In this document: positions 11,575 to 31,337 of the stretch, piece after piece
How the letters are laid out: every line of letters starts with the position of its first letter
How positions within the stretch are numbered: position 1 is the first letter of the stretch
Source of the DNA: Polychytrium aggregatum
Taxonomy: Eukaryota > Chytridiomycota > Chytridiomycetes > Polychytriales
Length of the DNA: 64,000 bases
Direction: 5' to 3'
Assembly (NCBI RefSeq): GCF_025602895.1
Contig: NW_026516215.1
Span: 434,001 to 498,000 of the forward strand
Notes under the pieces: model-generated
Told to the model about the DNA's origin: nothing
The model's database searches: none
What the model saw: only the letters and a program-made list of their open reading frames with translations
Program-made: the position numbers and the translations under genes

Positions 11575-11840
11575 GCTCGGGAAGCATAGTCTTGGGATGC
11601 AATATGCATTCGACCCTTCGGGCAGCTCTGTAGTTTCTCGACCTCCGAATCGTTGGATCGACCGAGTCGCCTGCCATGTGTTCTGGGCCTTGGGCGTCTG
11701 TGTTAGTGGCGGAGCCGTTCAAAGTCCAGGGAATCTCAAGATCCGTGGACTTTGTGCATCCTCCTTCCCTTGCACGAGGCATTCCCAAAGGCAACCACAA
11801 CATCAGTCTCCTTTGACACGCTGTTTGATCATGGTGGATC
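11575..11840 (-). mobile_element. Relic of a Fanzor-like element (3' part), copy R2
   Basis: Read in reverse, positions 11840-11770 translate as SKETDVVVAFGNASCKG, a close match to KETEVVIAFGNASWKQG of the Fanzor gene at about 13360-13410. It stops soon after. Downstream sequence to about 11575 matches copies R3 and R4, and the Fanzor 3' end around 13010-13030 (forward-strand TTCGGGA..A.AGTCTTG-like block). Frames are broken by stops. The rest of 11236-12162 shows no gene I can support. Confidence 0.75.
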
Positions 11841-12162: not shown

Positions 12163-12549
12163 CTATAGCGCACATCGCTGCCGCCCCCTCGGAACAGAGG
12201 GCAGCGGGTCGTGTTCGAGTGCTAAGGGAATCAAAGACCACGGTCCTCGATTTATCAGGCAACCCAGCGCACAACTTGCCTCGTCCTTTTCGATGTAGTC
12301 AACCGACGGCCAGTTCTGGATGGTATTTTCAGCAAAGGAGGGATCGCAATCGATGATGATGGCGGGGAGAACCTTGAGGCGGCGAACGACGGAACCGCCG
12401 CTGGCGACGACTTTGGCGGAGGCCTCCGAAATCTCGTCAGCGAGGCTGCCAGAACGGAAGACGACCACGTAGCGGTCGGCAGCGACGCATGAAGCGAGCA
12501 CGAGGCAAACAAGGGCAGTGATCAGCACGGGGAGCGAGCGCCGGGCCAT
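12163..12549 (-). CDS. Small secreted protein with an inhibitor I9-like (subtilisin propeptide) domain
   Basis: The ATG at 12549 opens 128 codons. MARRSLPVLITALVCLVLASCVAA is a clear signal peptide. The next segment (DRYVVVFRSGSLADEI through VDYIEKDE) has the layout of peptidase inhibitor I9 / subtilisin propeptide domains: an initial YVVVF strand, a helix, VLPAIIIDCD, then VDYIEKD. Stand-alone I9 proteins such as yeast Pbi2 inhibit vacuolar protease B; a secreted form would act on a subtilase outside the cell or in the secretory path (inference). The natural end may be near IEKDE, since the last 30 residues look like read-through or an unrecognised intron. No protease gene is adjacent. Confidence 0.6.
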   Translation of the reverse strand: MARRSLPVLITALVCLVLASCVAADRYVVVFRSGSLADEISEASAKVVASGGSVVRRLKVLPAIIIDCDPSFAENTIQNWPSVDYIEKDEASCALGCLINRGPWSLIPLALEHDPLPSVPRGRQRCAL

Positions 12550-12922
12550 GGCATGCAAAAATGGTGCTTGGAGAGGAGAGAGAGCGACGGGTGCGACGGG
12601 TGCGATGGGTGCGATGGGTGCGATGGGCTGGACACTATGAAAAAATTTCTTGTTAATAAAATGAGCGAGAACGAAAAAACGCGCTCTCGGAGCCACCTCG
12701 GTCGGCGAGAAGAGCAGTCTCTGGCGAGAGACCCCCGAGGGAAGGCGAGAAGCCTCTCGCCGTCACACACACACACTTTGCACAAGGGAGTCAAACACCT
12801 CCCATCGACCATCCCAAGAGGGATGGCAACCCCGAAGTGGACTGCCCAGAATATGGGCGACCCGGCATCCACTGTCGAAATGAACAAGATACTTACAGTC
12901 TATCCAGAAAGAAACGGGACAG
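12550..12922. other. Spacer with a (GGTGCGATG) microrepeat
   Basis: This is the promoter side of the I9 gene and the region past the Fanzor 3' end. It contains four to five imperfect copies of GGTGCGA(T/C)G at about 12590-12628 and a CA-rich tract at 12767-12778. No coding signal. Confidence 0.5.
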
Positions 12923-15486
12923 TCACTTTCTGGCTTCTGAACCCCGCTGACTGACTGTAGGCCCAGCGGGTAGGCCATGGCATTGCACTCCTGTCTTCGT
13001 TGGCAATCTCTTTGTTGGTTTCGGGAGCACAGTCTTGAATACACCCGGCCGATCTCCTGTGGCGATGATCGACTGGCATACCGAGATCATGTTCCGTGAG
13101 GCATTGATGTCTCGATGTGTTTGTGTGATGCATTAACTCGACTCTCAGGACAACTCCATGGTGAATCGATATCAAGATGCTCGGGTGACTCAAGTCGCTT
13201 GAATTCCCGGCAGTGTGAGCACACCTGGGATGTGTTGAACTCGTTCACCGAGCACACATGGATCTTGGAGACGGATCGGTCTGGTGGGCGTCTCTGGTGA
13301 TGGTGGAATTGCTCAAAGTACTTGGCAAACCTGAGTCTCCTGGGACTGGAAGCATATCCCTTCCCCTGTTTCCACGAGGCATTCCCAAAGGCAATCACCA
13401 CTTCGGTCTCCTTTGGTGCCTGGTCGATGACTTGCTTGCACATCTCGTGGACAGTGCGCTGTCGCTTGCCGTAGAGATCGAGTCGCTTGAATCGCCGTCG
13501 CCGGGTCAGGCTGAAGTACAGCTGTTTCTCCAGCATGTCTCCATCGAACACATGGCGAATATCTCGTAAGAAAGAAGGCACTCCAGGGATCTTGGGGCTC
13601 GGTGTGGTGCTCATCCATTTCTGCAGACCAAGGATCTTGTGGGTGCTCTGGATCCACTTGGTCGCCTGGGTGGTGCCACATCGATGCTGGTACTCCTTGT
13701 TGGAGAACGACACGATCTTCTCGTTGGCACGCTGTGCCTTGGTCACCTTGACACCGTCTTGCTCCTGGATGGTTGGTTGACCGGGTGCTCGAATGACAGC
13801 GGTGAAGATCGATCCCACACCAGGGTCGATCCCAATCCATGTGGTCCGAGAGTCGTCAATGGGACCGACCCTGGTCTGGATCTTCTTCTCGGGGGTGAGC
13901 TTGGGTGTCTTGTCCACGGGTTCTGGTTTGGCATCAGGGTCCTTCTTCTCCAGGATCTTGTATCTGAGCGTGGTGATTGAGCACCCGACCCCATCGGTGG
14001 TGATCTCGCAACCAAAGAGCTGCTTCCCCTCTTTCCTGGCACCAAAGAGTCTCGGATCCAGCTTGAAGTTGGTCTGCCAGAAGGTCTCTTGCTTTGTGGT
14101 GCCATTGACCTTGGTCTTCAGGTCGTCCCACTTGAACCCAGTGCCAGTCTGGTATCCAAGGATCTCCCACAGTGCTGTGGTGTCGAGCTTGACATACTTG
14201 GCTCGGGCATCGCAGAGCGGGACCAAGGTGCACTGTGCTCGAGGGACATTGTGTCGCTTCTTGGTCTGGGCAAGCCGGTCGGTCAATCGCTTGATCCGCT
14301 TCGTGTTGACAGTGATCTGCTTGCACACCTCCTCGTGCTGGGTTTGGAGATCTTTGAGTCTGTCAGCCCCGATGTGGTGGATGGGTTGACACATTTCCTC
14401 GTTCAGCCGTCCGCGCTCTCCTTTCAGATCATCGGTCACCCTCGCGAGCCTGGGAATGATCATCTTCTGAAAGACCACCATGAAGAGGGCCTCCTTCAGG
14501 TGGGTCAGTCGAGAGACTTCACTGGCCAGAATTGGTGCGACTTTGTACAGGTCCTGGTGGCTTTCGTACCGAAACTCATACAACTGGTCGGCATGGTGGG
14601 CGAAGGATTTTCTCAGATCACCGAGGAGTGTCTTGGAGAGGGGATTCTCCATCAGCTTCATGCACTCATCGACGTGTGTGTGCCGTTTGACATCCTTGGG
14701 AGCAATCAGGGCCAGATTGCAGAATCGACGGAGGAGAGACCAGTATCGATCAAGAATGTGGGTCTCGCAGTTGACTGCATAGGTCTTGACAGCCAAACCA
14801 AGGACCTGTGACCCAGTACCCTTTGGAAGGGACACTGGAGGCAGGATACACGACTTTCCCCATGCACGTCGATACAGCTCATATGTGTCGAGGAGGTGCC
14901 TGTCATCTTCCGGGGTGTTCGTCCTGGCACCCACTGTTCCTGTCTGCACCATATTGAAGCACTTTCGAACAAACGCGGGTTCACTCGACGACACAGTGTG
15001 GAGGGTGATGCCCTCGTCCAAGCACCGCCTGAGATGCAGCTCCAGGAGACGAGATGCTTCGTACTGCACGTGTGTCATGGCCCGGACAGTCTCCTCGATC
15101 TTGTCGTGCAAGGTATCGTTCTTGATGATGGCGTCGAGGGTGCACTTGACGGTGGAGTAGTCGGCCTTGACTTGCTCGTTTGGGCCACAGCCAGGCAAGG
15201 TAGAGCTCCAGAGTGGGTTCTTCTTGGTACACAATGAACTGTTGCTTTTGGCATGACCCACTTGCTTGCACGTGGCACATACAGGGACCTTGGGTGCTTG
15301 GCTGACCATTTCAGCGACCGAGGCAGGGCTGCTGTCGATTCTGGCTGTGCACTTCTTGGTGAAGGGCCTAACATGGTTGGTCAGGCCACAGGAGGGACAC
15401 GATTTGATAGTGGGCTTCTTGGCCACAGGAGAGTCACTGGGTGATCCCGGGTCGGGATCGGGGGGTGTCTTTCTCTTGGGAGCCAT
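12923..15486 (-). pseudogene. Fanzor-family RNA-guided nuclease (eukaryotic TnpB homologue), frameshifted before RuvC-III
   Basis: The ATG at 15486 (MAPKRK) opens 799 codons to a stop at 13087-13089. The start is NLS-like and basic, followed by two zinc knuckles of identical spacing (C30-x2-C-x4-H-x7-C46 and C70-x2-C-x4-H-x7-C86). A long helical middle follows. RuvC-I is WIGIDPGVGS (Asp about residue 554). The RuvC-II region VVIAFGNASW lacks the canonical Glu; a conserved Glu in NEFNTSQVCSHC (about residue 749) fits the rearranged site described for Fanzors. The zinc finger begins CSHC. The expected second half CITQTH-RDINASRNM (RuvC-III Asp) is at 13088-13132 but in another frame, which runs to a stop at 12923-12925. 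Comparison with relic R5 suggests two extra bases between PWS (about 13155) and 13132. Known Fanzors cut DNA using a guide RNA encoded at the 3' end. This copy is either recently inactivated or carries an assembly error. Confidence 0.88.
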
Positions 15487-17066
15487 CTGGCGAGAAAATA
15501 GCAGCGATGGCTGGTTCTTGTCAGGAACGGAGCTGGACTTTGGCACCAGACAGCTGATGGTAGTCGAACGGACGGTCGTAGGACGAAGGGGAGTGTATTC
15601 AATAGGCTAAGGGCAGGATACAAGAGGCAAGGTGAGGTGCTGGTTCTGAGGCCACAGCACCTCGTTTATATCTCTAAACGCCGTCCTTGTTCGCCGCAGA
15701 TTTTTTTTCCACTACAATGGAGATTGGTTATCTGCGACGGGGGGAGATTAGATCCGAACGTTTCCCTCGCCCGCCGGGAGGTTTCATGTCAGTGCCTTAC
15801 CCAACATTGCACATCAAGGAAACAGGACACGGGTTGGGGCGCCCATGAAACCATCCACCGGGCGTGGGAACGCGGTTCATGACAGTTCTGCCCTTGGGGA
15901 AGAAAAATTCTCCTCAAAACCAGCGCATTTTGGGCTGGCAGAGATACTGTGCAGTGGCGTCCTTGATTCAGATCCAGAAACGCATCGCTCGCTCAATCAG
16001 TCGTGGGAAGACATCTTGTCAAGGTGAGTCTTGCCTGATAGCCAAACGATCATGTCATCTCGCTGACACACAGCCACGCTTGACTAGGTTTCCAACCAGA
16101 GAGATTCAGATGGTGGTGGTTCTTGTCCGCAATCGGAGTGGAGCTTCCAACAATGATACAATTGGTCATTCTTCCACACCAATTGCCCACCACCACCGTC
16201 AATCGGCTCAAGGTGATACCAAATGCCGTCAACCGACCATGGCCGGATTCCAACTTTTGCTGCTCCACATTCGACGTGACTTTCAGGTGACCGAGATGAG
16301 CAGCCGCGAGGGGCCGGAAAAAATTGATAGTGGAGCCGTTTGGAGCTGGAGCCGTTTGGGTTGGAGTCGGCATGGTGGGAGAATGTCCGTCAGAGGAGAG
16401 TCACATGGCGCCGCCCAGCCAGCCAAGGAGCCGGCTGGAGCCGAGGCGGTGGCGATGTGTGGCGGTGGTGGCACGCCACAACAAACAGTGCATCTGTGGG
16501 AATCGAGCTGCTGGGAGACGAGGCCCGACCGAACGCAACCCAGCAGCAGCCGGGGGGGGGCAGTTTGCAATATATAACTGCGGTGTCGCAGAGATCTATA
16601 TTGAAGTGTAATTGAGCCACGCCAAATATAGCAACTGCATATAGCACGATACATTGCTCCTCCGAGCTTGCAAAGTCATGCGACCAGAGCCGATGGGGGA
16701 TGCGATGCGCTCGCCTCCCCCGCCTCGCCTTCTGTTTGCACATTCGCGATCGAGGGCACTCTCGCCCGAAGCCCGAGGATACTCATCTGTCTGCCCGGAG
16801 TTGTTTGCATCGCCGGCCCGAAGTTGTTTGCATCGCCGGCCCGAAGTTGTTTGCATCGCTGGCACAGACCTTCCATCCTCTCGGCTGCTTCTGCGGTCCT
16901 CGCGGTCGCTCCATCGGCGCTGTTGTCATTTTCTTTGGCCTCGGCCACGCCGGTCTCGGCGCTTCTCTGCCCCGCACCGCCCCTCGCCGGCCCAAAATCG
17001 CCCTGTTTGCCGTCGCCCGTCCTTGGCCTTCGTCCACCCCCAGCCGCATCCCCATCCACCCACACC
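15487..17066. other. Spacer between the Fanzor gene and the rhomboid gene
   Basis: This spacer of about 1.6 kb holds the Fanzor 5' flank and the rhomboid promoter. I see a T-run at 15702-15709, a G-run at about 16552-16561 and a three-copy 22-base repeat (16798-16862). A forward frame through about 15864-16577 has no recognisable domain and biased composition; I do not call it. I found no convincing terminal inverted repeat for the Fanzor element. Confidence 0.45.
16798..16862 (+). repeat. 22-base tandem repeat
   Basis: Three near-identical copies of GTTGTTTGCATCGCCGGCCC plus GAA (the third shorter and diverged), about 200 bases upstream of the rhomboid start codon. Confidence 0.85.
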
Positions 17067-31118: not shown

Positions 31119-31337
31119 GTGGCTGCACCTTTCCCAAAGCCAAGCGGGACACCTTGTTTTGAGTCAGGGCTGCCGTTTTATTCTGGATCTGAATACACTC
31201 GTCACGACCAAACGGTGGGCTCACAGCGCCTGGAGGCCAAGCGGCTCGAGCAGCCCGAGTATCTTGACATCGAGAAACCATGGAGTGTCGCCCAGAGGAC
31301 CGATTGCATCCACCATTTTGTTCACAATCGTGAGTGA
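31119..31337 (+). mobile_element. Relic of a Fanzor-like element (zinc finger/RuvC-III side), copy R5
   Basis: The forward frame reads KRLEQPEYLDIEKPWSV followed by DCIHH, aligning with KRLESPEHLDIDSPWSC of the Fanzor gene and with CITQTH in its shifted frame. The zinc-finger cysteines are lost (VGSQR where Fanzor has VCSHC). A stop follows HNRE, before any NAS motif. This is the only relic on the forward strand. It shows the undamaged spacing between PWS and the second Cys (18 bases). Confidence 0.8.

Follow-up and report, generated by a model that had tools for sequence, protein, structure and literature searches.

The question raised by this locus is why a Fanzor-like nuclease gene should carry its RuvC-III motif outside its own reading frame. 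TnpB and Cas12 have eukaryotic relatives, the Fanzors, whose role for the transposons that carry them is unsettled. In the window, that is the whole stretch of 64,000 nucleotides analysed here (G000:C35:434001-498000, from a host genome of 64.68 Mb in 418 contigs), the focal element lies on the minus strand and its frame of 799 codons, by translation, starts with an ATG at 15486 and reaches its stop at 13087. The end of this frame adjoins the motif RDINASRNM (13114-13088, minus strand), which is read in a different frame, and a second minus-strand frame of 69 codons (13132-12923) holds CITQTHRDINASRNM... together with RuvC-III. The displacement reported in a preliminary description made from the sequence alone was thus borne out, to the exact coordinates. 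That description explained it by recent damage, an assembly error or recoding. As argued below, the focal copy instead probably belongs to a large Fanzor1-like chytrid family with CACTA-type ends, whose copies exchange short stretches, and is dead by a 49-bp block that it inherited. The features of the coding part are the following.

13087..15486, minus strand: Fanzor1-like open frame, 799 codons plus stop, ending before RuvC-III (translation, Pfam)
13820..13839, minus strand: motif W-I-G-I-D-P-G, which we take to be RuvC-I (residues invariant in 11/11 aligned intact relatives)
13381..13404, minus strand: region EVVIAFGN, probably RuvC-II
13210..13221, minus strand: CSHC, the first CxxC of the zinc ribbon (translation)
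13117..13165, minus strand: 49-bp B block replacing a 47-bp A block, second CxxC lost and frame shifted (copy comparison)
13088..13114, minus strand: displaced RuvC-III motif RDINASRNM, in the other frame (translation)
12923..13132, minus strand: 69-codon frame with RuvC-III and the C-terminal tail (ORF listing)

The focal protein finds at least 57 places in the genome including itself, at 82-100% identity and with at least 617 of 795 residues aligned in each, a lower bound given by the best 57 of 1276 candidates scored. Twenty copies were read whole with their flanks, together with 601 bases of a further copy on contig C375 (L041). The intact copy L020 scores 38.6 bits against Pfam PF07282 (OrfB zinc ribbon / TNB, cut-off 26.3), so that the identity first given to the locus, a Fanzor-like nuclease, is correct for the family; the focal frame scores 19.0 bits, under the same cut-off, and L020 resembles guided-TnpB models far under theirs (24.5 of 100 bits). 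The Fanzor1 motif D-X(125,275)-[TS]-[TS]-X-X-[C4 zinc finger]-X(5,50)-RD, taken from PMC3627910, is not found in a single frame of the focal copy, which has one CxxC left and its RD in another frame. Intact relatives carry it whole, the zinc ribbon and RuvC-III sharing a frame in 15 of the 20 copies, 11 of them open from the start. These intact copies encode proteins of 854-933 aa, the 11 aligned ones conserve GIDPG, NTSQ, SHC, SC-S-C and D-NA, and dN/dS is about 0.29 among 10 of them (45 pairs). A search of 5.8 billion proteins, which catches only relatives sharing short exact words, returned no relative of an intact copy at E 0.001 and, consequently, no outside homologue was usable for comparison; in sequence searches of the PDB, no entry reached an E-value of 0.1 or better.

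Comparison of the 20 copies between the first CxxC and RuvC-III, measured between shared anchors, revealed two forms, A of 47 bp and B of 49 bp. Form A (15/20) has the second CxxC and RuvC-III in frame; of these copies, 11 stay open from the start up to RuvC-III and four are interrupted by a stop or by a frame break early on. Form B was found in the focal copy (L009) and in L010, L011, L015 and L019, where the block codes for only one cysteine in the main frame, with RuvC-III falling outside that frame. The C375 copy is a sixth B copy, so that all 15 copies whose zinc ribbon and RuvC-III are in frame have 47 bp and all six displaced ones have 49 bp. Since the two forms differ at 31 of 47 aligned bases plus a 2-base gap, the two extra bases proposed earlier are real as a net offset of +2, whereas the event itself is the replacement of a block and not a 2-base insertion. 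No CxxC is present in any frame of the focal B block.

The distribution of form B bears directly on its age. L009 and L010 represent one insertion on two contigs (99.4% identity over 8.4 kb), and L009/L010, L011, L015 and L019 occupy four different sites, the last three with different 3-bp duplications. The 601 bases of the sixth B copy match L011 at 100%, and this copy may lie at the same site; the B block thus occupies four or five sites. Across the genome, the B core has 61 places with at most 3 mismatches, namely 6 exact ones, which are the six B copies, and 55 with 1-3 mismatches, while its reversed control gave 0 matches at the same limit; the A core has 265 genome matches. The six exact B loci align in the focal frame to residue 795 and most of the other 51 places end at 777. 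Being shared among copies, the B block is older than the focal insertion.

These results weigh differently on the explanations first proposed. Simple recent damage in one copy, by a small insertion, would agree with an upstream frame otherwise fully open over 799 codons; however, six copies, placed at four or five sites, share the block and its core lies in 61 places. Together with the extent of the A/B differences, this makes such an accident extremely improbable, and recent damage is not supported. A local slip was likewise set aside on the family alignment and the shared block. An assembly error at the junction is very unlikely because the B block is shared by copies on several contigs, L009 and L010 carrying it on two. 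Recoding or splicing that would bring RuvC-III back in B copies was examined by listing in silico, for L009 and L015, the introns of 25-400 nt with GT-AG or GCAA-AG borders. Twenty theoretical splice forms, removing 44-383 nt, keep the motif in frame in L015; the focal copy has only a single theoretical intron (359 nt, GC-AG) that would leave DINASRNM in frame, and splicing rescue of the focal frame was rejected on this enumeration. In addition, the focal RuvC-III frame has in-frame stops just upstream, no canonical slippery heptamer was seen in the focal copy on inspection by eye, and a frame change alone would not restore a normal zinc ribbon since the block is devoid of CxxC in every frame. 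Rescue by either route is thus hardly credible, and recoding is not supported.

The upstream stops and the missing CxxC lead us to take the focal product as nuclease-dead, and loss of cleavage is the probable consequence as predicted from the sequence. The catalytic residues of SpuFz1 include D606, according to PMC10432273; D606 would correspond to the RD aspartate, whose loss would kill the focal protein. One may ask if the truncated 799-aa protein has been kept as a nuclease-dead regulator, with selection on the B block. TnpB-derived repressors (TldR) provide a comparison for such a role. The upstream frame is indeed whole in L009, L010 and L015 (799, 799 and 802 aa) with the common ending HIETSMPHGT, and the 3' RNA block is retained. 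In L011 and L019, on the other hand, reading from the copy's own ATG meets a break close to the N-terminus, and dN/dS of B versus A copies (0.29; L009 versus L015, 0.05/0.19) is similar to A-A values and uninformative because of conversion. A selected regulator is therefore highly improbable, and the inherited dead block is retained as the reading of this locus.

How one block could come to lie in several insertions was addressed with linkage among 17 copies (same-site L010, L020 and L028 dropped; median pairwise coding identity 92%), using the 420 informative sites found among 2386 coding columns without gaps. The r2 fell from 0.69 for neighbouring sites to 0.20 at 21-30 bp and 0.09 at 41-60 bp, and beyond 200 bp it was 0.062-0.068 compared with 0.062 in shuffled data, so that linkage dwindles over about 60 bp. 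The fraction of incompatible site pairs was 0.245 below 20 bp, 0.545 at 20-49 bp and 0.59-0.65 farther apart, and a PHI-like statistic of 0.458 compares with 0.624 +/- 0.007 after permutation (0/1000 permutations as low).

Three pairs of copies that share an insertion site, with nearly identical flanks, gave a second view of this exchange. L013 and L020 differ at 102 of 3686 positions within the element and at only 5/2154 and 0/2487 in the flanks; L023 and L028 differ at 91/3754 inside against 7/2153 and 3/2415 outside; the focal pair L009/L010 shows almost no internal change (5/3700 inside, 2/4643 in the flanks). Both states are found in other copies at 88 of the 102 and 72 of the 91 differing sites respectively, and at least one state is found elsewhere at all of them. 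Since the internal differences occur in other copies, they point to conversion from those copies after insertion and not to new mutation. Many clusters of differences match no single copy over their full length among the 18 compared, so that short tracts, superposed tracts or donors among the unread copies have to be assumed. In this light, ectopic conversion appears to have spread the B block as a dead allele. Among the papers listed in the literature search, none deals with gene conversion in Fanzors to judge by its title.

Shuffling specific to Fanzor elements is opposed by a control with LINE copies. Six LINE copies about 98% alike gave 86 incompatible pairs out of 153, the same level as in six-copy Fanzor subsamples (mean 0.55, range 0.32-0.66); by distance, the LINE pairs were incompatible in 8/21 cases below 60 bp, 20/33 at 60-299 bp and 58/99 beyond 300 bp, a weak series given its 18 sites. 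Twelve LINE copies form deep groups with long-range linkage disequilibrium and are hence an unfair contrast to the Fanzor copies. The control suggests that ectopic exchange may be a general property of the repeats of this genome. LINE-like RVT_1 frames are clustered on many contigs with many equal scores (150 of 1671 candidates scored), some near contig ends, for example on C24 at 1036078 of 1038618 and on C375 at 1129645 of 1154014.

A different origin for the mosaics would be an assembly or polishing artefact in which repeat copies were blended, perhaps spreading the block as well. The scale of the mosaics, below the length of short reads, and the duplicate contigs resembling haplotypes would agree with it. 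Against it stand the sizes of the contigs examined, which reach 1.46 Mb and in some cases hold long-repeat clusters, 3-bp duplications left intact in 15/20 loci, the 99.4% identity of L009 and L010 over 8.4 kb and the presence of the B core in 61 places. Blending of copies is accordingly considered very unlikely, and exchange between copies remains our preferred explanation of the mosaics.

Short derivatives of the family also carry the B core. Six of the 55 near-match B loci were read (L029 to L034), and five of them (L029, L030, L031, L032 and L034) are short derivatives joining the start region to the zinc-ribbon region; L029 and L031 are near-identical over 4 kb. The sixth, L033, is a 5'-truncated Fanzor piece of about 530 bp (G000:C290:195240-199240) bearing a B-type block. 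The whole block of 49 bp is kept in three of the six (L029, L031, L033), and the element ends and the start of the 3' RNA block are absent from 6/6 (pattern search, at most 2 substitutions). The transfer may have run from such short derivatives to the long copies. They are reminiscent of the Fanzor "ghost" elements, presented in Saito et al. 2023 as dispersed ORF-less short elements sharing parts of the full element; unlike the latter as described there, the six loci here are devoid of ends and 3' RNA start and carry a frame-breaking core.

An old Fanzor-like fragment is also present in the window at about 11691-11825, with 71.8% DNA identity over 131 columns to its focal equivalent and a weak protein match. 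It is perhaps a relic of the type called R5 in the preliminary description. The left break of L033 (L009 position 5071) coincides with the break of this fragment (5072), hinting, on sequence grounds, that the two may be a recurrent derivative. Fainter Fanzor-like pieces were noted at 31215-31322 and 567-626.

The boundaries of the element were defined by blastn and by comparison of the copies.

12633..16332, minus strand: whole element of about 3.70 kb, from CACTATC (16332) to CATAGTG (12633) (blastn and ends of 20 copies)
16316..16332, minus strand: left (5') end CACTATCAATTTTTTCC (end comparison of copies)
12633..12649, minus strand: right (3') end GAAATTTTTTCATAGTG, its reverse complement beginning CACTATGAAAAAA (end comparison of copies)

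CACTATCAAT and CAT[A/T]GTG are at the ends of 20/20 copies, and a 26-bp pattern from the left end has 90 genome occurrences with at most 3 mismatches. An exact 3-bp target site duplication (TSD) flanks 15 of the 20 loci, or 13/17 after dropping same-site L010, L020 and L028, while widths of 4 to 10 bp match at 0/20; the focal locus is without an exact duplication. CACTA-type termini and 3-bp target duplications are features of the CACTA (EnSpm/CMC) superfamily, and both were found in this family, which suggests from its sequence that the carrier is of CACTA type. No transposase was found inside the Fanzor element. Transposase_21 (PF02992) has 29 matches in the genome, and two identical copies of an element bearing it (L039, L040) begin with CACTATGAAAAAA, that is 13 bp identical to the reverse complement of the Fanzor right end. 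By blastn this match is not significant (E 2.1) and carries weight by its placement at the very ends of both elements; the link between the Fanzor element and PF02992-bearing CACTA elements is one of ends and TSD length only. Mobilisation would then be provided in trans by a CACTA transposase. The combination of Fanzor and CACTA was not found described in the literature searched, nor was a linked mention of Fanzor and EnSpm, an alga paper having both as separate repeats. Within the 5' non-coding region, a stretch of about 366 bp (window about 15518-15885) is present in the focal and some other copies and missing in about 59% of the 17, the sequence on both of its sides being highly conserved.

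Downstream of the coding part, the element contains a conserved region with the following extent.

12633..12930, minus strand: 3' region, conserved and structured, between the usual stop codon and the right end; candidate omegaRNA (conservation and folding)

In this region, 17 copies agree at 95-98% when compared in 100-base windows, against 83-97% in coding windows. Against column shuffles that do not keep dinucleotides, the sense-strand consensus fold gave z -8.2 for 12780-12930 and -6.7 for 12631-12930, and only -2.3 for 12631-12780. Control folds gave z -0.2 to -1.0 in three coding stretches, -2.5 in the 3' coding tail, -1.9 in the left end and +0.4 in one 5' stretch, another 5' stretch having too few columns; single-sequence folds with dinucleotide shuffles gave z -2.2 and -3.5. 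No Rfam family was assigned to the region, its one match (E 0.93) lying under the gathering score. In S. punctatus, the omegaRNA arises between the stop codon and the 3' inverted repeat, as stated in PMC10432273. The focal copy keeps its 3' structured region and, therefore, may still supply a guide RNA, which would serve the nucleases of other copies. Just past the usual stop, a GTAAGT...ACAG segment (window 12872-12896), 25 nt here and 37 nt in several copies, looks like a tiny intron or its remnant; the similarity of L029, L032 and L033 stops no more than about 10 bases from its start.

Among the closest described counterparts is SPu-1 with its protein SpuFz1 from Spizellomyces punctatus (PMC3627910, PMC10432273). 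It shares with the present family a chytrid host group, a single ORF in many copies of which only some are intact, short ORF-less derivatives, a non-coding RNA region, here a candidate one, from the stop codon to the right end, and, at the C-terminus of the protein, a C4 zinc finger ahead of an RD motif. SPu-1 is about 2.1 kb long, with 30-33-bp TIRs, putative TA duplications and a protein of 633 aa, whereas the elements here measure 3.7 kb, with 6-7-bp CACTAT-type ends, 3-bp duplications and proteins of 854-933 aa.

Taken together, these observations make most likely a scheme in which intact copies make the Fanzor nuclease, a CACTA transposase probably moves the elements, and the copies are reshuffled, most likely by ectopic gene conversion or by templated repair that switches templates. 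The focal copy would be a casualty of such an exchange, having received the 49-bp block in place of the 47-bp one; this block removes the second half of the zinc ribbon and puts the third catalytic aspartate (RuvC-III) out of frame, and the copy would persist as a dead member that is not autonomous. While the broken frame alone is ordinary, real interest lies in the mobile block that copies share, in the fineness of the mosaics and in the CACTA-like carrier. According to a preprint (PMC11870625), bacterial insertion sequences are driven by TnpB, which cuts plasmids that do not carry them, and a TnpB-like role here, if true, would explain the re-synthesis of elements in place. RNA-guided cleavage of empty or broken sites by the intact Fanzors, followed by template-switching repair from dispersed copies, would continually re-synthesise elements; the family would then act as a freely recombining gene pool with linkage over a few tens of bases, and the dead block would persist by way of guide RNA, dead copies supplying it and being re-copied by intact ones. 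This extension is regarded as unlikely, and a TnpB-like role is not claimed in view of the LINE control. The intact, dead and short copies in one genome, together with the same-site pairs, provide natural test material for RNA-guided copy-back. For similar loci, it is advisable to align the family before calling a displaced motif fresh damage or recoding.

Concerning the surroundings of the element, its right end is about 80 bp upstream of an ATG at 12549 (neighbouring frame region, window 12280-12560) and, therefore, the insertion may sit in the promoter region of that gene, whose product presumably resembles a peptidase-inhibitor I9 propeptide. The window also holds a conserved host gene, a CWC22 homologue, and the host is read as a chytrid. 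Aligned across roughly 60% of its length, this homologue shares 73% identity with proteins of the chytrids Blyttiomyces sp. JEL0837 and Spizellomyces sp. 'palustris'; the values are 69% for Batrachochytrium and 63% for Synchytrium microbalum, the two top-scoring matches being plant-labelled at 56-57%.
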